A DNA stretch of 21,559 nt from a virus: positions 1 to 21,559 of the IMG/VR virus record IMGVR_UViG_3300030104_000110, one strand, 5' to 3'. Position 1 is the first letter of the stretch; every line of letters begins with the position of its first letter. Under the pieces are notes generated by a model. That model had not been told where the DNA came from. It did not search any database and was given only the letters and a program-made list of their open reading frames with translations. Positions 1 to 16,212 of the stretch are shown piece after piece. The position numbers and the translations under genes are program-made.

Positions 1-1537
1 CAGTAGCTGTAACTGTTGTACTCATGTCTAACAATTGATTTGTTTGTGCAGTCGAAGATGAAAACTGGTCAGAGATACTAGGTGAATTACTGATGCTTCC
101 TGTTGCACTAGCCGATGTTGAACCGGAAGTTGCTAAGTTTGAGCTAGAGTTTGTTGATGTATTACCACCTGTTGTTGTGTATATACTTTCTCTAGCAGTT
201 TTAATTGTAGATGCAACCACAGCTAACGATTTTTCTTTTGTTAAACTAGAGCCTTTTTCTTCAGCAACAAGCTCCTCTTCTTCTATTTCTTCTTCTATAA
301 CTTCGTCTTCTTCGTCTTCAACAAGTTCTTCAATAAGTTCTTCCTCCTGCTCCTCTGCATACGCAAGTTCTTCTTCCACAATTGTCTCTTCCTCAAACCA
401 CTCCTCCACTTCTTCAATAAATGTTTCTTGAAATACAAACTCTTCAATCATTAAATCTTCAATAGGTATAAAGACTTCTTCGTCACGCATGAATGGTAGA
501 GGTTCTATAAATTCTTCTAGTGGTTGTAACTGTTCAAAGATTATTTCTTCTGCAAAAATAAACTCAGGTTCTTCAAAGATGTCATACTCAAATTCAAACA
601 CATACTCTTCAAAGATTTCTGGCTCTTCAAAAGTGTCATACATGTCATACTCTTCATAACCATAGTCAAACAAGTCTTCTTCATAACCATAATCAAAGTA
701 TTCTTCTTCTTGATAATAACCAATGTCCATTTCTTGCGTATATCCGGGACAGAAAGGACCGTATTGTGGGTCTAAGTCACACTGTAGATCATCGTAAGCA
801 TCCCAATATCCTGCACAACTTACATCGTTTAGTGGATTACTACAGTCAAGAGTCTCACTTGTACCATACAAAGAACCACCATCTTCTAGTAAAGTATTTG
901 CTGCAGTGTTATTCCAGTTAGTACTTACACACGAGCTAGTGTTGGTTGTGCCTGTATTACATTCATCGTGAAACAAGTATTGATAGTAAGTATCTGAATC
1001 TTTCTGTTGACCAATAAGAACATCGTGTTGAATAATATCTAAGTCACCATATCTAAAATCAAATGTAGAGTTAGTCCAAAGTATTACTTCAAAACTGTTA
1101 TCAGATGCACGGTTGTACTCTTTCAGATCGTACCAACCAAAGACTGTTTTATCGCTAAAGTTCTTGGCTAACATCTTAGACTGATTATCTCTAATGAGGT
1201 CAGTCCAAAATGGAAACAATGTATAGTTGTATTGTGGAAGTGGGTCAGGTGTATAATCACCACAGTAATTATTATAGTTTACATTACCTGTACCTAATCC
1301 AAAGTGAAGGCAACCATTCGTAGCCATACGAGCAGAGGTAAATTGTTTGTCGTAAAAAGTAAACGTAAAGTCTAAATTAAAAGCAGACGAAAGCTGGTCG
1401 TCACCAACATTAAGATTAGTAGTGCCTGATTCGTTTGTGAGGTCTACTAAAGACTGATTGCCTTCGTAGATATACTGACTAAAGACATTAAGACTTAAGA
1501 GACACGCTACTGCGTAGCATAAAATTCTTTTCTGCAT
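1..1537 (-). CDS. Secreted nidogen-like (NIDO) domain protein with Glu-rich tract, 3' end outside window
   Basis: This frame stays open from an ATG at 1537 to the window edge, giving 512 codons with no stop, so the C-terminus is missing. Residues 1-20 look like a Sec signal peptide: basic start MQKR, hydrophobic core, then a likely cut after VFS. Residues about 50-190 resemble an extracellular nidogen-like domain, with signatures ATNGCLHFG (72-80), LFPFWTDL (107-114) and SFEVILWTNSTFDFRYGDLD (148-167). A Cys-containing stretch follows (Cys 193, 203, 232, 241, 253, 263). Residues about 276-428 are an acidic, aromatic low-complexity tract, and the visible end is Ser/Thr-rich. The start overlaps the upstream gene by 31 bases and has AAAGG just before it. 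Family knowledge: NIDO domains occur in extracellular adhesive proteins. The role here is inferred: an exported adhesin or surface-modifying protein made late in infection. An outer virion decoration is the alternative. The reading frame is certain, the domain call moderate. Confidence 0.65.
   Translation of the reverse strand, partial: MQKRILCYAVACLLSLNVFSQYIYEGNQSLVDLTNESGTTNLNVGDDQLSSAFNLDFTFTFYDKQFTSARMATNGCLHFGLGTGNVNYNNYCGDYTPDPLPQYNYTLFPFWTDLIRDNQSKMLAKNFSDKTVFGWYDLKEYNRASDNSFEVILWTNSTFDFRYGDLDIIQHDVLIGQQKDSDTYYQYLFHDECNTGTTNTSSCVSTNWNNTAANTLLEDGGSLYGTSETLDCSNPLNDVSCAGYWDAYDDLQCDLDPQYGPFCPGYTQEMDIGYYQEEEYFDYGYEEDLFDYGYEEYDMYDTFEEPEIFEEYVFEFEYDIFEEPEFIFAEEIIFEQLQPLEEFIEPLPFMRDEEVFIPIEDLMIEEFVFQETFIEEVEEWFEEETIVEEELAYAEEQEEELIEELVEDEEDEVIEEEIEEEELVAEEKGSSLTKEKSLAVVASTIKTARESIYTTTGGNTSTNSSSNLATSGSTSASATGSISNSPSISDQFSSSTAQTNQLLDMSTTVTAT
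254..712 (-). repeat. Coding low-complexity tract rich in Glu, Phe and Tyr
   Basis: Residues about 276-428 of the NIDO-like protein are dominated by Glu, first mixed with Phe/Tyr/Asp and then almost pure Glu with Ile/Val. A tandem unit of nine residues (27 bases) is visible at 650-701, encoding FDYGYEE twice in succession. On the plus strand the tract reads as TTC/TCT triplets, which produces a spurious Ser-rich open frame. It may be an extended, highly charged linker between the globular head and a Ser/Thr tail; that role is inference. Confidence 0.7.
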
Positions 1538-2586
1538 TGACCTTTGGTTTTAGTTTTTCGTGTGTAAATAACCTTAACTGCCCCAACAACATCTTTGTTT
1601 ATTTTATCTCTGTTAGGGTTTCTTTCATGTGTGCATTGCTGTATAAAAAGTTTCTCTTGCTCTTTAGCATCAGGTCTTTTAGATTTGTTTTGTTCCCAAG
1701 CCATTGTTGCTTCTTTACCTATTTTACCTCGGTAAGGGCAAGGAGTACCAGCCATCTCCATAGCTTTAAATACTCTTGGGTCTTGACAAAGTATAGATAC
1801 TGAAGCGACTTTCATACCGGTATCGTATAGATACTTGGAAAGTTTTAAGCGTTCACAGTTCTCGTCAGTCACAGTTGCTCCTGTAGAGAACCCAAATACT
1901 TGCCCTTGAAAAGCCCCTGAACGACCTACTGTACATAGGTCTTGGGAATAACTCATAATGCTAGGTGCAATAGCAGAAGCAGGAGGTGCTTTACTTTTTA
2001 CGTTCTGATTAATAGTTTGGGTAGAGTTAGACTCATTAATATTTCTATTGGTATTATCAGATGTAGTGTTATTATTATTATTGTTAGTATTTTGAGTAGT
2101 AACATTTGAATCTGAAGTTGATTGATTAATGTTAGTATTAGTATTTGTATTAGTATTATTACTTGTAGAATTACTTGTATTGTTTACATTTTGATTTACT
2201 GTAGAGTTTACAGTAGATGTAGATGTAGACGTAGATGTGTTGACGTTGTTATTAGTATTGGTATTATTGCTTGTAGATGTGGAATTATTAACATTGTTAT
2301 TTGTGTTAGTTGATGTATTAACATTAGTATTGTTATTAGTTGAAGTGTTTACATTAGTATTAGAATTTGTATTGGTATTTGTATTTGTATTTGTGTTAGT
2401 ATTATTATTTGTATTTGTATTAGTAGTAACCGTTGTATTAATTGTAGTTAAACCATTATCTTCACAATACTGAGTACCTGACGTACAGTTACCTGTAGGT
2501 TCAGCACTTAACCCAAACGACAATGTAATTAAACTCAATATAAATAATGGTCCAAAAAATCCTCTATTTAAATCACCTCTTGACAC
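1507..2586 (-). CDS. Exported Asn/Thr-repeat protein with conserved Cys-containing C-domain (GTG start)
   Basis: I start this gene at GTG 2586, giving 359 residues. AGGAG lies nine bases upstream (2596-2600), and the start makes a clean signal peptide of about 28 residues ending LSFGLSA. An upstream in-frame ATG at 2652 would run through the preceding gene and lacks these features. After the signal come a short CTSGTQYC element (Cys 34, 41), then about 150 residues built almost only of Asn, Thr, Ser and Val (47-195), then a globular C-domain (about 205-359) with Cys 218, 244, 267, 283, 318 and 351. That domain contains DENCERLKLSKYLYDTGMK and AGTPCPYRGKIG. I recall similar C-domains in other marine phages but know of no assigned function. 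The layout suggests a stalk carrying a disulfide-stabilised head outside the cytoplasm. The gene follows the lysis cassette and overlaps the next gene by 31 bases. Confidence 0.75.
   Translation of the reverse strand: MSRGDLNRGFFGPLFILSLITLSFGLSAEPTGNCTSGTQYCEDNGLTTINTTVTTNTNTNNNTNTNTNTNTNTNSNTNVNTSTNNNTNVNTSTNTNNNVNNSTSTSNNTNTNNNVNTSTSTSTSTVNSTVNQNVNNTSNSTSNNTNTNTNTNINQSTSDSNVTTQNTNNNNNNTTSDNTNRNINESNSTQTINQNVKSKAPPASAIAPSIMSYSQDLCTVGRSGAFQGQVFGFSTGATVTDENCERLKLSKYLYDTGMKVASVSILCQDPRVFKAMEMAGTPCPYRGKIGKEATMAWEQNKSKRPDAKEQEKLFIQQCTHERNPNRDKINKDVVGAVKVIYTRKTKTKGQCRKEFYATQ
2002..2448 (-). repeat. Imperfect hexanucleotide tract encoding Asn-Thr/Ser repeats
   Basis: On the plus strand this stretch is dominated by variants of ATTAGT, ATTTGT and TGTATT. 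On the coding strand these are AAY-ACN and AAY-AGY dicodons, giving long runs such as TNTNTNTNTNTNSNTN. The tract fills residues about 47-195 of the gene at 1507-2586. Because the unit is six bases, gain or loss of units keeps the reading frame, so the stalk can change length without destroying the protein. Confidence 0.8.
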
Positions 2587-2587
2587 T

Positions 2588-2968
2588 TTATTTATCTCCT
2601 GCTGGTTTTTTAGATGTGCTAGTGTATAGACCAAACCATGCAGCTCCTGCACCTACAACAACAGATATTAAACCTGATTGTTCCATTGTAGGATTGTCTA
2701 GTCCCATAAACCAAAATGTGGTATAATATAATAAATACATGTAAACACTTAAAAAAGCTCGAGGTATAATCCTCCAGCTATCTACAGCTTGTGCTACAAA
2801 TATTAATTTTTGATAAGGGTTATCATTCTTAGTATCTTCTAACTCTCTTATCCTATCTTTTAATTCTGACTTTTCTTGTAGCAAAGCCATGAATTTATTA
2901 AGGTCAATTTCTACCTCATTTCTATCCATGTCGCCACTAAAGCCACCCATCATATTATTGTTTTGCAT
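2588..2968 (-). CDS. Small membrane protein of the lysis region, possible second holin or regulator
   Basis: This 126-residue protein has a polar N-terminus, a likely coiled coil at about 22-46 (LNKFMALLQEKSELKDRIRE) and two hydrophobic segments at about 68-90 and 98-116 separated by a short acidic turn (LDNPTMEQSG). It ends in a short Lys-containing tail. The start has GAGGG four bases before the ATG. It lies directly after the three-helix holin-like gene and within 0.7 kb of the lysozyme, so a part in membrane permeabilisation or in controlling the holin is reasonable. That is inference from position and topology only; I do not recognise the family with certainty. It is translationally close to the next gene, with one base between its stop and the GTG start. 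Confidence 0.6.
   Translation of the reverse strand: MQNNNMMGGFSGDMDRNEVEIDLNKFMALLQEKSELKDRIRELEDTKNDNPYQKLIFVAQAVDSWRIIPRAFLSVYMYLLYYTTFWFMGLDNPTMEQSGLISVVVGAGAAWFGLYTSTSKKPAGDK
2596..2600 (-). promoter_or_regulatory. Ribosome binding site that fixes a GTG start
   Basis: The coding strand reads AGGAG here, nine bases before GTG 2586. It sits inside the last codons of the upstream gene, whose TAA (2590-2588) ends one base before the GTG. The same arrangement, GGAGATAAA then a start, precedes the ATG at 20302. This favours the GTG over an upstream ATG at 2652. Confidence 0.75.
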
Positions 2969-2979
2969 AATGCCCTCTA

Positions 2980-3411
2980 TTATTTTTTAACTAAACTACC
3001 ACCAAAGTACATGCCTATAATAGCTGATACTAAGTTAGTATCTAGTTGCGTAATTACCAAGCCTTTAAATGTTATCCATTCAAAAACTTCTCTCCCTTCT
3101 GTTAAAAATAAAAATCCCGGATTAAATACAGTATAACCTACTGTTACATCTACATCTGGATAGTATACTGCTACTAGTTTAGGCAGTATAACAATTGCAA
3201 AGATAGATGATAAGGCAATGATACGTCTTGTCCATTGAAACCCTACATTATCCACGTTTCTTGCAGATTCAATTGCTTCTAATTGAAATTTACCACGAGT
3301 AATTAAAAGCTCTTGTTCTTTTTGTTTAGCTTTTAATCTTTGTGACCACAGACTTAGCATACTACTAATTAAAGTAGACCCAAGCATGGTTATAATTTCA
3401 AATGGAAACAT
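2980..3411 (-). CDS. Putative holin, three transmembrane segments (GTA-holin-like)
   Basis: This 143-residue protein has hydrophobic segments at about 4-22, 64-84 and 117-140. A basic, Gln/Lys-rich helix (SQRLKAKQKEQELLITRGK) lies between the first two, and the second segment begins with FQWTRRIIAL. This layout matches what I know of phage and gene-transfer-agent holins of the three-helix type, which oligomerise in the inner membrane and release the endolysin. The lysozyme gene is two genes upstream in the same transcript and has no signal peptide, so a holin is needed nearby. The start follows the previous stop by one base, with no strong separate ribosome site, suggesting coupled translation. 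The exact family assignment would need a profile search. Confidence 0.62.
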   Translation of the reverse strand: MFPFEIITMLGSTLISSMLSLWSQRLKAKQKEQELLITRGKFQLEAIESARNVDNVGFQWTRRIIALSSIFAIVILPKLVAVYYPDVDVTVGYTVFNPGFLFLTEGREVFEWITFKGLVITQLDTNLVSAIIGMYFGGSLVKK

Positions 3412-3412
3412 A

Positions 3413-3649
3413 TTATTTATCCAGTGTTAAAGTTGATTCAAGTAATTCGTTTACAGAGTTTATTAGGTACTCCGGTATTTCTGCACCTAATATATCGTCC
3501 GCATTATATGCTATCATATAAGATTCTAACAGGTCTTCGTATAAAGGTCTGAACTCTTCTCTAGTTACCCAAGCTTCGTTACATTTTGTACGAGCTTTAC
3601 AGTCTATTCGATACGCAACATCGAGTTGTTTTTCTGTATAGAGTAACAT
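3413..3649 (-). CDS. Small hypothetical protein in the lysis cassette
   Basis: This 78-residue protein is of no family I can name. It has no membrane segment or signal peptide. It is acidic overall with two Cys near the start (IDCKARTKCNEAW) and a predicted helical C-terminal half rich in Leu, Glu and Asp. Its ATG overlaps the lysozyme stop as TAATG, and its stop is one base from the holin-like start, so it is translated as part of the lysis set. It might be a small cytoplasmic regulator of lysis or simply a passenger; the sequence does not decide. Confidence 0.6.
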   Translation of the reverse strand: MLLYTEKQLDVAYRIDCKARTKCNEAWVTREEFRPLYEDLLESYMIAYNADDILGAEIPEYLINSVNELLESTLTLDK

Positions 3650-4098
3650 TATTGATCAAGGACAACCTGCTGTAGCTCAACGCTACGTCTACCTACTTGA
3701 GTAAACCACCGACTGTTTTGCATTTCGGCAGCCATTCTATCCCAGTTATGTTCTCTACAAGCCTGTAGCATATTTCTAAACTTTAAAAGTCTTGAACCAC
3801 CTAAATTAAAACACATGTTTACTAACACGTGCTGTATTTTTTCAGGAAGTTTATAAAAATCTTCTTGATTACCAAACACATGTATAGCTTCTTTATAATG
3901 TTTATTAAAATCATCTTCGTAATACATGTCAACTACTTCTTGTGATACAGGTGTACCAACTTCCCAAGAATATTCGGGGTCATTAGGCTGACATAAATGA
4001 CCAACTCCTAGAGTTTTATAGCCTAAACTGTCCATATAAATTTCTAGGACTTCGCCCTCGTGTCGTTTAATATCTGCTTTACATTGTTCAATGTTCAT
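3649..4098 (-). CDS. Endolysin, T4-type lysozyme (glycoside hydrolase family 24)
   Basis: This 149-residue enzyme is expected to cut the N-acetylmuramic acid to N-acetylglucosamine bond of peptidoglycan at the end of infection. The N-terminus carries the T4-lysozyme catalytic layout: RHEG with Glu14, Asp23 in YMDSLG, and Thr29 in YKTLGVGH. The spacing (8 and 5 residues between them) equals that of T4 Glu11-Asp20-Thr26. Later landmarks are VLVNMCFNLGG (about 92-102) and the C-terminal SRWFTQVGRRS, typical of the family. There is no signal peptide or membrane anchor, so release depends on a holin, and a suitable candidate lies just downstream. The ATG overlaps the stop of the preceding large gene as ATGA, and its own stop overlaps the next ATG. 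Length is close to the 164 residues of T4 lysozyme. Confidence 0.93.
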   Translation of the reverse strand: MNIEQCKADIKRHEGEVLEIYMDSLGYKTLGVGHLCQPNDPEYSWEVGTPVSQEVVDMYYEDDFNKHYKEAIHVFGNQEDFYKLPEKIQHVLVNMCFNLGGSRLLKFRNMLQACREHNWDRMAAEMQNSRWFTQVGRRSVELQQVVLDQ

Positions 4099-10286: not shown

Positions 10287-10928
10287 TTAAACTCCTGTTT
10301 TACCTAACAAACTTTCGTTAGCTTGTGGTTGTTTTCTTTGTAAAATACTTTCTTTAATTTTACTTGTATCTAAATTATCTAATTGAGCTTTTAACTCTGG
10401 ACTAGTCATAGGTATGTTTTTAGGTTGAACTGGTAGCTCTCGAAGATTTTTAGGATTAGGTGTTACTTCATTACTTGTTTGTAAGTTTCTTGCAACCTGT
10501 ACATTTTTTTGTGCGATTGCTTTATCTTCTTCATCATCATCTAATGACTCATCAAGGTCTTCATCTTCTGAAAGGATTGGGTCAATACCTATTTTTTCTG
10601 CAACGGATAAAAGCATATACATAGTTGGTTCCATTAATGTAATAGCTAAATCAGGATTAATTTTACCTTTTTGAAAAGCTGTTTTAATTAATAACTCTGC
10701 AATGTTTGCTACTGGAACTTCATCAGACATCATACCTGCAAGAGTTTCCATGTTTTCAGGTTTAATAATTTCTAAAAACATTTTATCAATTGCTTCTCGT
10801 TGAGTTGTAATTTCAGGCGGTTGTTCCCAAGGATACGGAGTATCAGGAGAGTTTGTTAAAGACTGTCCGGGAACAGGAGCTTCAAACAAATAAGGTGTTG
10901 TTTCAGGGATTATATTTGCATTAGCCAT
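10287..10928 (-). CDS. Probable virion structural protein, 213 residues
   Basis: I begin this gene at ATG 10928, the tenth codon of the longer open frame, because GGAGG lies five bases upstream; the ATG at 10955 has no such site. The protein starts with a Pro-rich segment (VPGQSLTNSPDTPYPWEQPP, about 19-38). A compact helical region follows at about 44-115 with PVANIAELLIKTAFQKGKINP and a Met-rich stretch. Then come an acidic run at about 120-136 and a polar Pro/Asn-rich tail. I recall similar proteins next to ejection proteins in marine phages but know no function. It overlaps the upstream gene by eight bases. In size and position it parallels T7 gp14, the smallest ejection protein, which is an inference rather than a homology claim. 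Confidence 0.68.
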   Translation of the reverse strand: MANANIIPETTPYLFEAPVPGQSLTNSPDTPYPWEQPPEITTQREAIDKMFLEIIKPENMETLAGMMSDEVPVANIAELLIKTAFQKGKINPDLAITLMEPTMYMLLSVAEKIGIDPILSEDEDLDESLDDDEEDKAIAQKNVQVARNLQTSNEVTPNPKNLRELPVQPKNIPMTSPELKAQLDNLDTSKIKESILQRKQPQANESLLGKTGV

Positions 10929-12027
10929 ATGTTCCTCCAGTAGCATAATCAGCAAAGGTTAAACCATATCCCGGTGCACCTATTGCAGTATTTATAGGAT
11001 CAGTGCCGGGATTACCAAAAATTCCAGCATAAGCATTAGCTGCACTATTCATATTTGATGATGCATTCATTGGTATAAATGTAGCATCTGTTCCACCTAA
11101 AGTATATGGTTCGTTTGGTTGATTTAATTGGTTTGCCATTCCAATGTTTGGATTATAAAAAGCACCTTCTACATTATCAGGATTAAAATATTTATAGGCT
11201 GTAAAAACACCTGATGCATCTTTTGCAAGTGATGCTGCTTCTCCTACAGTTACTCCAGTTCCTAAAACTTCTGCATCACCTACTTTTGTTTTTAAATTTT
11301 GACTACCATCAACAATTTTTCTAAATATACCATCTTCTTTAATTTCTGGTGTATCAATAGTTTTAATTGTTGGAGCTTCTTTAGGGTCAATTCCTAAATC
11401 TTTAGCACGTGCTTTAGCATCAGCAGTAATTTTTCTTTGTCTTATTTGTTCTTTACGTAATTGTTCCGTTTTACCTGCTGGTAATTCTGCTCCTGAATCA
11501 ATTCTTTTTTCTAAATCTGCAAAACTTTCTTTTGCTTGATCAGTTACTTCAGTAGGACTTAAAGTATCAGGAGTAGCACTAAACCGATTAGCTGTATCAC
11601 TTACAAAATTTTTAAACGAAGTAGCTAATCCTTCAGAACCGGGACTCATAAAAGGTTTAGTTACCATATCAATCCCAGCAGTTAGTGCTTTACTTACTGT
11701 ATTATAAACAGCACCTATAGTATTATCATAAGCGAAAGATGCTGCACTTTTTATAGAACTTCCAATGCTTGATAAAGTACTAGCAAACTTTGAAGGTAAC
11801 ATATTCATAACTTTAGAACCAAACTGTCCCATCCAAGACGTAAGCACATTACCCATACCGGGCAATATAAAAAACAAAGCTAAATGACCTAGAGGTCCTA
11901 ATTTACCAAAAGCTTTTGTAAGTTTTTTAAAACCTTTTTTAATTCCTCTACCTATCTTACGCATTCGTTTAGCTATAGAGCTTCCAAGCTTTTTAAAACG
12001 TTTCTTTATACTTTTAAATAATCCCAT
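10921..12027 (-). CDS. Probable structural/ejection protein with highly basic N-terminus
   Basis: Of the first 42 residues of this 368-residue protein, 17 are Lys or Arg and none is acidic (it begins MGLFKSIKKRFKKLG). A hydrophobic segment at about 45-65 follows (PLGHLALFFILPGMG). The middle is polar and helical with many Lys, Asp and Glu. The C-terminus is Gly/Asn/Ala-rich and ends DYATGGTYG. The basic plus hydrophobic start looks like a membrane- or DNA-contacting element. It does not look like a normal signal peptide, because the charged part is too long. The gene is nine bases after the 757-residue structural gene, with AGAGG before its ATG, and overlaps the next gene by eight bases. I take it as a component of the virion interior or tail; the exact role is unknown. 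Confidence 0.65.
   Translation of the reverse strand: MGLFKSIKKRFKKLGSSIAKRMRKIGRGIKKGFKKLTKAFGKLGPLGHLALFFILPGMGNVLTSWMGQFGSKVMNMLPSKFASTLSSIGSSIKSAASFAYDNTIGAVYNTVSKALTAGIDMVTKPFMSPGSEGLATSFKNFVSDTANRFSATPDTLSPTEVTDQAKESFADLEKRIDSGAELPAGKTEQLRKEQIRQRKITADAKARAKDLGIDPKEAPTIKTIDTPEIKEDGIFRKIVDGSQNLKTKVGDAEVLGTGVTVGEAASLAKDASGVFTAYKYFNPDNVEGAFYNPNIGMANQLNQPNEPYTLGGTDATFIPMNASSNMNSAANAYAGIFGNPGTDPINTAIGAPGYGLTFADYATGGTYG
10934..10938 (-). promoter_or_regulatory. Strong ribosome binding site deciding the start of the 213-residue gene
   Basis: The coding strand reads GGAGG, then five bases, then ATG 10928. It lies within the last codons of the 368-residue gene. This supports the second in-frame ATG over the one at 10955. 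Confidence 0.8.
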
Positions 12028-14331: not shown

Positions 14332-14574
14332 TTACTTAACTTCAAACAATTTGTCAAGCTTTTCACTGATTTTATCTATTCTTTCCATGAGTCTAGACAT
14401 ATCATCTCTTAACTCAGCTTTAGTTACGTATTCTCTTGCAATCTCTTCACGAGTTTTGTTTAGCAAGATGTCTTGTCTTTTAATTTCTGCAGAGTTTTGT
14501 CTAATGCCATAAACTATTGGAGCTAGGACAAGAGTTACAAAAACATTCCATATAATGTATGCTGAGATTTCCAT
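14332..14574 (-). CDS. Small membrane-anchored coiled-coil protein
   Basis: This 80-residue protein has one hydrophobic N-terminal segment (about 5-24, IWNVFVTLVLAPIVYGI) followed by a charged helix with heptad-like spacing to the C-terminus (LRDDMSRLMERIDKISEKLD). The topology is probably one membrane helix with the coiled coil in the cytoplasm or periplasm. I have an impression of similar small proteins in marine phage structural regions, without known function. It could be a lysis helper such as a holin or spanin-like piece, or a scaffold for virion assembly. It starts one base after the stop of the upstream fibre-associated gene, so translation is probably coupled. Confidence 0.62.
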   Translation of the reverse strand: MEISAYIIWNVFVTLVLAPIVYGIRQNSAEIKRQDILLNKTREEIAREYVTKAELRDDMSRLMERIDKISEKLDKLFEVK

Positions 14575-15141: not shown

Positions 15142-16212
15142 TTACCTCGCTGTTGTTGGGATTCCTGTTGATGTTACCAATGGATTTTCTGCAAATGCCA
15201 TATACAAATAAGTATGGTCGCTAAAATTAAGGTTATTATCATCTCTGCATTTAAACCCATTACTTAAAAAATCTATATTCTTTGTTGAACTTGCACCTTG
15301 AGGGTCACTTGCTTGAGCAACTAAATAATCATCCATTACATTTGATGTGCTTCTAGCAGTATCCATAATATCCCAACCCATATTTGCTTGGGTAGATTTA
15401 AACATTATCCATTTTGGTTTAAATCCTGTATAAACAAAAGCACCATCATCTGCAGAATTTCCTTTATAACTACCAAACTTGCTGTAGCCTTGTTTTTCTG
15501 TCCAAGCCCAAAAAATATACTCGTCACCATTTATATTACAATTATCATAAGCACTTGAACCTTGAAATACAGTAAAAATACTTGAAGTACCTCTACTGTT
15601 ACTAGCTCTTGCACTAACCCTACCTGATGCACTATCAGTTTCACCATTAGTATAGAACCTCATTACATGATTAGCTGAATTTTTTTCATGCCAAACAAGC
15701 CACGCTGCAGCAGTATCTTTCCTTTTTACTATTATCCAATTAGGTTTTGCTCCAAGTCCATGTCCTATTGTTTGGTTATCCGAACCGTTACCTGTGTAAG
15801 TTCCTATGGTAAAACCAGCAGTAGAATTTGTTTGTATCGTACTTGTAATATCGCCATCTGAATTAGAGCTGGTAGAATTTCCGTTAGCTTTCCATTGCCA
15901 CGCAACATTTTTTTCACCATTTACATTATTACTACTATTATTTGTTATACCAAATCCATCTGTATTAAATGAACTTATTAAAGAACTAGCAGTACCTATG
16001 GCTGATGTTACATTACTCCTAAAATATTTTGTAACACCATAGTTTGATGTTTGCCATATATGTGCAGTATTTGAATCCATACATTTCATCCAAACAAAAT
16101 CTGGTTGCAAATCACTATTACCATCATTGGTAATATTTGTAGCTGTAGCATTACCAGTCCATCTAGCAACCTGAAAGTGTGCTGATGGGTCGTCTATTGT
16201 TGTATAAGACAT
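15142..16212 (-). CDS. Tail adhesin of three DUF7483-like repeats
   Basis: This 356-residue protein is beta-rich and appears to contain three copies of one unit, at about 12-108, 133-242 and 243-344. Each unit shows an opening strand with a Gly-rich turn (RWTGN, GTYTGNGS, GSYKGNS), then a P-x-W/F-V/I strand (PDFVWMK, PNWIIVK, PKWIMFK), then a Trp-containing strand, and closes with a Gly-Phe or aromatic pair and an A-W/F-A/E strand (VAWQWKA, IFWAWTE, LYMAFAE). It ends NPLVTSTGIPTTAR, an ending I associate with DUF7483 proteins of marine phages. There is no signal peptide. It follows the LamG-SPRY adhesin by one base. It is likely a distal tail or receptor-binding part; the ligand is unknown. 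Confidence 0.72.
   Translation of the reverse strand: MSYTTIDDPSAHFQVARWTGNATATNITNDGNSDLQPDFVWMKCMDSNTAHIWQTSNYGVTKYFRSNVTSAIGTASSLISSFNTDGFGITNNSSNNVNGEKNVAWQWKANGNSTSSNSDGDITSTIQTNSTAGFTIGTYTGNGSDNQTIGHGLGAKPNWIIVKRKDTAAAWLVWHEKNSANHVMRFYTNGETDSASGRVSARASNSRGTSSIFTVFQGSSAYDNCNINGDEYIFWAWTEKQGYSKFGSYKGNSADDGAFVYTGFKPKWIMFKSTQANMGWDIMDTARSTSNVMDDYLVAQASDPQGASSTKNIDFLSNGFKCRDDNNLNFSDHTYLYMAFAENPLVTSTGIPTTAR

Follow-up and report, generated by a model that had tools for sequence, protein, structure and literature searches.

A conserved three-gene set encoding predicted envelope proteins of aquatic phages, with a possible spanin-like role in lysis

The window analysed here is the whole stretch of 21,559 nucleotides that makes up positions 1 to 21,559 of the IMG/VR virus record IMGVR_UViG_3300030104_000110. 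Gene A, on the minus strand at 1507–2586, encodes a protein of 359 aa with an export signal, a stalk rich in Asn, Thr and Ser and a head with four conserved Cys; its coordinates and strand had been given correctly in a first-pass annotation made from the letters alone. The GTG start codon at 2586 has the Shine-Dalgarno sequence AGGAG 9 nt upstream (2596–2600, minus strand), and relatives, such as the one on contig L016, have an ATG at the equivalent position; an alternative in-frame GTG at 2652 (381 aa) has neither a Shine-Dalgarno sequence nor support from the starts of relatives.

From this GTG start, and in line with the earlier annotation, the hydrophobic residues 1–28 (2503–2586) resemble a signal peptide in a heuristic scan (MSRGDLNRGFFGPLFILSLITLSFGLSA|EP), with predicted cleavage at LSA|EP, and signals of this kind are kept across 359 relatives. 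Residues 29–44 (2455–2502), with the Cys pair C34 and C41, are conserved only in the lineage of the window. The stalk (residues 45–204; 1975–2454) corresponds to the Asn/Thr/Ser repeat of about 150 residues that had been noted before: its 160 residues are 80.6% Asn, Thr and Ser, with 6 charged and no aromatic residues. A recent slippage run was dropped as the origin of the stalk because its DNA has only imperfect short tandem repeats and mixed codons. The head core (residues 205–306; 1669–1974), delimited by alignments and an AlphaFold model, contains C218, C244, C267 and C283, and a C-terminal extension seen in the alignments (residues 307–359; 1510–1668) adds two Cys, which gives the mature protein eight Cys, six in head and extension in addition to C34 and C41. 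The earlier description of a conserved-looking head with six Cys holds for the four core residues, which are kept in 355 of 359 relatives alongside invariant D/C/G positions, but not for the two in the extension, which are lineage-specific. All these parts lie on the minus strand, and the product of gene A is probably exported to the host cell envelope.

The placement of A as a late gene after a lysis cassette also held in the window. The order on the minus strand is an endolysin (3649–4098; Pfam Phage_lysozyme, E 2e-8; phrog_7 endolysin), a 78-aa soluble protein (3413–3649), a putative holin-like protein of 143 aa with hydrophobic segments and relatives in pelagiphages and roseophages (2980–3411), a 126-aa membrane protein that matches phrog_10198 (2588–2968), A and B.

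Gene B (2–1537, minus strand) overlaps gene A by 31 nt and is cut by the contig end; contig L011, which overlaps the window with 100% DNA identity over 2682 bp, supplies the complete B of 656 aa. The protein has a signal peptide, a beta domain at about residues 22–256 and a Glu-rich disordered region, and the general layout of B proteins is an export signal, a variable N-terminal domain and an acidic Glu-rich spacer that is of low confidence in the model of the L012 homologue. The N-terminal domains are hypervariable and include NIDO-like, CBM-like and other forms; the match of B to NIDO (PF06119) reached 12.8 bits (E 0.12), below the Pfam gathering score of 25, and a PDB fold search with B gave no matches. 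In HTVC033P and S28C10, B is annotated as 'carbohydrate binding'. The C-termini of NIDO-type B proteins are clearly homologous to those of several other types (probability 96.4), whereas NIDO-type and pelagiphage CBM-type C-termini have only a short motif in common (probability 11), so that a single B family is not proven. At one locus (L065 5423–7387), B is split into several ORFs, through decay or sequencing error, and A is intact.

Downstream of B in the lineage of the window, L011 encodes a 66-aa TM protein, an IscU-like protein and gene C (122 aa); the window's own C lies outside the window, on this contig. C proteins are short, with an N-terminal TM (predicted in 179 of 180 distinct C proteins), a coiled coil assigned from weak matches to coiled-coil families, and an NP[LMI] end. 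The IscU/NifU-like iron-sulfur scaffold gene lies between B and C in this lineage (L011 3318–3719, L012 7601–8002 and L016 7575–7988) and is a possible auxiliary metabolic gene in the late operon. Two genes annotated as 'lysozyme', CRP-810 gp51 (L008 6162–6584) and CRP-207 gp73 (L092 3292–3873), are actually C-type, with an N-terminal TM, a coiled coil and an NPLGR/NPL end, and the label is likely a mis-annotation.

Against PHROGs, gene A matched phrog_20531, listed as of unknown function (E 3.3e-14, residues 105–299), and the head alone did so at E 1.6e-14; a Pfam search of gene A gave no matches. The earlier view of an exported, probably non-virion protein without an assigned function is supported, and the conserved head is probably held by disulfides. 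The A proteins of a roseophage and of Mosig and a protein of phiAxp-2 match the same family, which was already known and carries neither a function nor the B and C context. By tblastn, the Pelagibacter phages HTVC115P, HTVC202P, Mosig, Baldr, HTVC033P and HTVC023P carry A, as do the roseophages CRP-207 and CRP-810, the podovirus genome S28C10 and two phages from spring water. Head queries confirmed 542 (window A), 478 (HTVC033P) and 125 (CRP-810) IMG/VR stretches, sets that may overlap and of each of which the best 80 were kept. With more than 500 IMG/VR contig stretches, nearly all from marine and freshwater phages, the head family is widespread. A scan of genome contigs gave 24 A loci, chiefly from marine sources; nearly every one lies on a MAG or bin contig. 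In ctXG6705 (L007 4860–5366), A is unannotated, its place being taken by two antisense ORF calls, and B is labelled 'transport protein tonB'.

Across 359 family ORFs, the A N-termini are wholly different in sequence, and nearly all complete ones carry a hydrophobic signal. A heuristic scan assigned 304 type-I-like export signals and 13 lipobox matches, of which 10 were clean, these ten all in pelagiphage-type proteins. Six A ORFs end in a C-terminal TM, and the A of HTVC115P has a weaker one. With a clean lipobox in ten A proteins and a terminal TM in six others of the family ORFs, the means of tethering A to a membrane appears to be interchangeable. The Achromobacter phage phiAxp-2 has a distant relative of A (phrog_20531, E 1.4e-5), on the strand opposite to its tail and lysozyme-like genes and with no recognisable B or C. 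This A-like gene, for an exported protein with a Cys head (L367 44598–45155), adjoins one for an exported Gly/Ser/Ala-rich protein (45216–45710).

The structure prediction of the head, proposed in the first-pass annotation, gave an AlphaFold model in which helices come after a beta hairpin bounded by Cys (pLDDT above 90 in the core and 77 on average). A PDB fold search with this model gave no matches; in BFVD, every named match with E below 0.001 belonged to the same family, and the phiAxp-2 protein was a weaker match. Because Cys3 and Cys4 are lost together in two IMG/VR relatives (L166 and L168, both residues replaced by Ala), these two may pair, in which case C1 and C2 would bracket the hairpin of the model; this suggests disulfides C1–C2 and C3–C4.

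An HMM of the A head alone, run against 14,288 ORFs, retrieved A proteins and nine short ORFs directly upstream of A that contain a lipobox (E 2e-6 to 7e-5), and hhalign aligned the head with these lipoproteins over 41 columns at a probability of 97.8. By these profile comparisons, the A head is in part homologous to the small lipoproteins encoded directly upstream in roseophage-type loci, the only loci at which A is accompanied by a separate lipoprotein gene. In CRP-810 and ct7L0027, a TM-coiled-coil gene lies upstream of the lipoprotein gene. An 80-aa protein of the window with an N-terminal TM and a coiled coil, encoded after the tail genes (14332–14574, minus strand), belongs by HMM to the family of the gene just upstream of the lipoprotein gene and A in roseophages, with phrog_462/7885 matches common to L093.

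Gene A is one of a conserved three-gene set, which the earlier annotation had missed. The ORFs of A and B overlap or lie within 10 nt of each other at 201 of 236 loci, B and C lie within 50 nt at 156 of 182, and a C-like protein is encoded downstream of A at 48 of 52 testable loci; the corresponding counts are 0 for the upstream side and 2 for the minus strand. As judged from these genomes, A is nearly always accompanied by B and C in SAR11 and Roseobacter phages. We looked for a C homologue in cyanophages and found none, and a literature search gave no description of the A-B-C module or its function.

At 96 of 120 testable loci, a gene for a murein hydrolase or a holin is found no more than about 5 kb from A, a raw count obtained with seeds from which the C-type 'lysozyme' entries CRP-810 gp51 and CRP-207 gp73 had been left out. 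The gene order of S28C10 (Autographiviridae) runs tail fibre, further genes, holin-like gene, A, B, C, further genes and TerL. In T7, it is tail fibre, holin, TerS, Rz/Rz1 and TerL, and the S28C10 module occupies the interval that holds Rz/Rz1 in T7. In Baldr and HTVC202P, A-B-C lies just upstream of TerL, and the lysozyme or M15 peptidase gene is far off. A lipobox scan that recovered both T7 18.7 and lambda Rz1 turned up no convincing candidate for a lipoprotein gene in HTVC202P, S28C10 or the first 50 kb of HTVC033P; Baldr yielded a single doubtful ORF. Because the scan also found no lipoprotein gene in the pelagiphages HTVC142P and Skadi-4, which lack A, this absence is not specific to phages with A-B-C. 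At the T7 Rz/Rz1 position, HTVC142P, which lacks A, encodes a TM-coiled-coil protein and, directly after it, a small exported protein with two Cys and no lipobox (gp47–gp48; L363 4933–5497). Skadi-4 gp23 (L364 5653–6186), an exported, Asn-rich, Cys-containing protein encoded near a holin-like gene, may be an analogue of A and is not matched by the A profile (E 29).

Because of the genome position, the topology of C and the lipoprotein link of the A head, we prefer, tentatively and at somewhat short of an even chance, a reading in which A-B-C is a lipoprotein-free, periplasm-spanning, spanin-like lysis complex that may help to break the outer membrane at lysis. A, B and C would be co-expressed as one envelope complex with A as one subunit. 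C would be anchored in the inner membrane and reach across the periplasm, and A, its head held by disulfides, would add reach through its flexible Asn/Thr/Ser arm. B would dock on the complex through its conserved C-terminus and contact a host-specific outer-membrane component through its variable N-terminal domain. Once holin and endolysin have acted, the complex would link the inner and outer membranes and complete the disruption of the outer membrane, and so do the job of Rz/Rz1 without an outer-membrane lipoprotein.

Compared with two-component spanins (lambda Rz/Rz1, T7 18.5/18.7 and T4 PseT.3/PseT.2), C shares the predicted i-spanin topology, the S28C10 module has a T7-like position, A is an exported Cys-bearing partner, and roseophage loci likewise hold a pair of TM-coiled-coil protein and lipoprotein. 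However, window A lacks the o-spanin lipobox, there is a large extra partner in B, and homology is not convincing: the C of L012 matched phrog_739 (Rz-like spanin) at E 1.8e-5 in its TM/coiled coil, where chance matches are common, and the other C proteins tested against spanin families gave no matches. Those A proteins in which an export signal is joined by a C-terminal TM, or that have a lipobox, resemble the unimolecular spanin T1 gp11; a lipobox and a C-terminal TM together were seen in none of the family ORFs, window A included. Further points count against a lysis role: variability like that of the B N-terminus is more often a mark of receptor binding than of membrane fusion, A-B-C is far from the lysozyme or M15 gene in Baldr and HTVC202P, and the A relative of phiAxp-2 lies on the opposite strand from the tail and lysozyme-like genes.

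Superinfection exclusion or receptor masking, in which the complex binds a receptor from the periplasm or the surface and progeny do not re-adsorb to cells or debris, is rather unlikely in our estimate; it comes close behind the spanin-like role because of the variable B domain, the analogy to the Rtp45 hairpin, the tail-fibre-linked Cor cassette and the phiAxp-2 relative outside the late operon. The hypervariable N-terminal domain of B would then provide receptor specificity, with A and C holding B in the envelope. Known exclusion lipoproteins (T5 Llp and Rtp45 of phage Rtp) bear a disulfide and act on the receptor from the periplasm, the side from which they can insert a beta hairpin into it (PMC12685063), and the AlphaFold model of the A head has a Cys-bounded hairpin likewise. 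Cor is encoded directly behind the tail-fibre genes, in a cassette of three genes whose other two products are membrane proteins (PMC13164509), and in CRP-810 the TM-coiled-coil gene, the lipoprotein gene and A come after the tail-fibre region. A resembles T5 Llp, T1/phi80 Cor and Rtp45 in export, disulfides and hairpin, but it is far larger, mostly not a lipoprotein and encoded late. Its head and hairpin are kept in phages whose hosts are unrelated (SAR11, Roseobacter and freshwater ones), unlike a receptor-specific plug; A-B-C sits in the late region beside lysis and terminase genes, and some A proteins end in a TM. At 359 aa and without a lipobox, as in most relatives, window A is not a small lipobox-bearing lipoprotein of the Llp/Cor/Rtp45 kind, and because it lacks the lipobox we class it neither as an o-spanin nor as an exclusion lipoprotein of the Llp/Cor type.

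The nearby holin-like and endolysin genes, and the precedent of Melnitz CsgGF, repurposed envelope proteins to which a part in controlling lysis has been ascribed as a proposal in related phages (PMC9004378), would also fit an accessory or timing role, in which the module would regulate the holin, activate the endolysin or target peptidoglycan instead of disrupting the outer membrane; we hold this to be improbable, as no enzymatic or peptidoglycan-binding domain was detected in the module, which is conserved even where the lysozyme gene is distant. The curli pore proteins CsgG/CsgF of pelagimyophages and Melnitz are likewise envelope proteins encoded by phages of the same kinds of host (PMC9004378), but no sequence similarity to A-B-C was detected and A-B-C has no pore domain; curli-type secretion was dropped because the module lacks a CsgG/F-like partner. 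The low-complexity stalk and head of A and the lectin-like appearance of B could also suit envelope remodelling or adhesion, with A and B coating the infected cell surface or debris and altering aggregation or grazing. This is more improbable still, as the module includes neither a secretion partner nor an anchor in the outer membrane, C belongs to the inner membrane and some A forms are tethered at their C-terminus. Because of these C-terminal TMs, the inner-membrane anchoring of C and the homology of the head to neighbouring lipoproteins, the evidence favours a periplasmic role over the surface action (superinfection block, adhesion or debris coating) proposed earlier. The late position and the adhesin-like B might point to a virion component, such as a decoration or adsorption protein acquired in the periplasm; this is very improbable given the Sec-type signals on A and B, the cytoplasmic assembly of phages and the neighbouring lysis and terminase genes. 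We looked for a virion proteome of an A-bearing phage and found none.

A survey of spanins found none in about 13% of the 677 phage genomes that it covered and raised the question of an alternative route through the outer membrane; its text does not name SAR11 or Roseobacter phages (PMC6139136), and those that we scanned are mostly without lipoprotein genes. If the spanin-like role is true, A-B-C would be the missing lysis step, an undescribed device that lyses some of the ocean's most abundant bacteria. The broader claim of an undescribed, lipoprotein-free lysis machine of three proteins that spans the periplasm, with a new disulfide fold and a swappable domain facing the outer membrane, that replaces spanins in abundant aquatic phages is more doubtful. 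An exclusion role would instead make A-B-C an aquatic counterpart of Llp and Cor with a broad distribution. With either function, proteins now labelled 'hypothetical' become one testable unit.

Elsewhere in the window, the protein encoded at 10287–10955 has a segment, APVPGQSLT..P..YPWE.PPEI, in common with the conserved late protein gp46 of roseophage CRP-2 (L366 4947–5513), and the gene at 15142–16212 in the tail region matches DUF7483 (E 1.9e-87).
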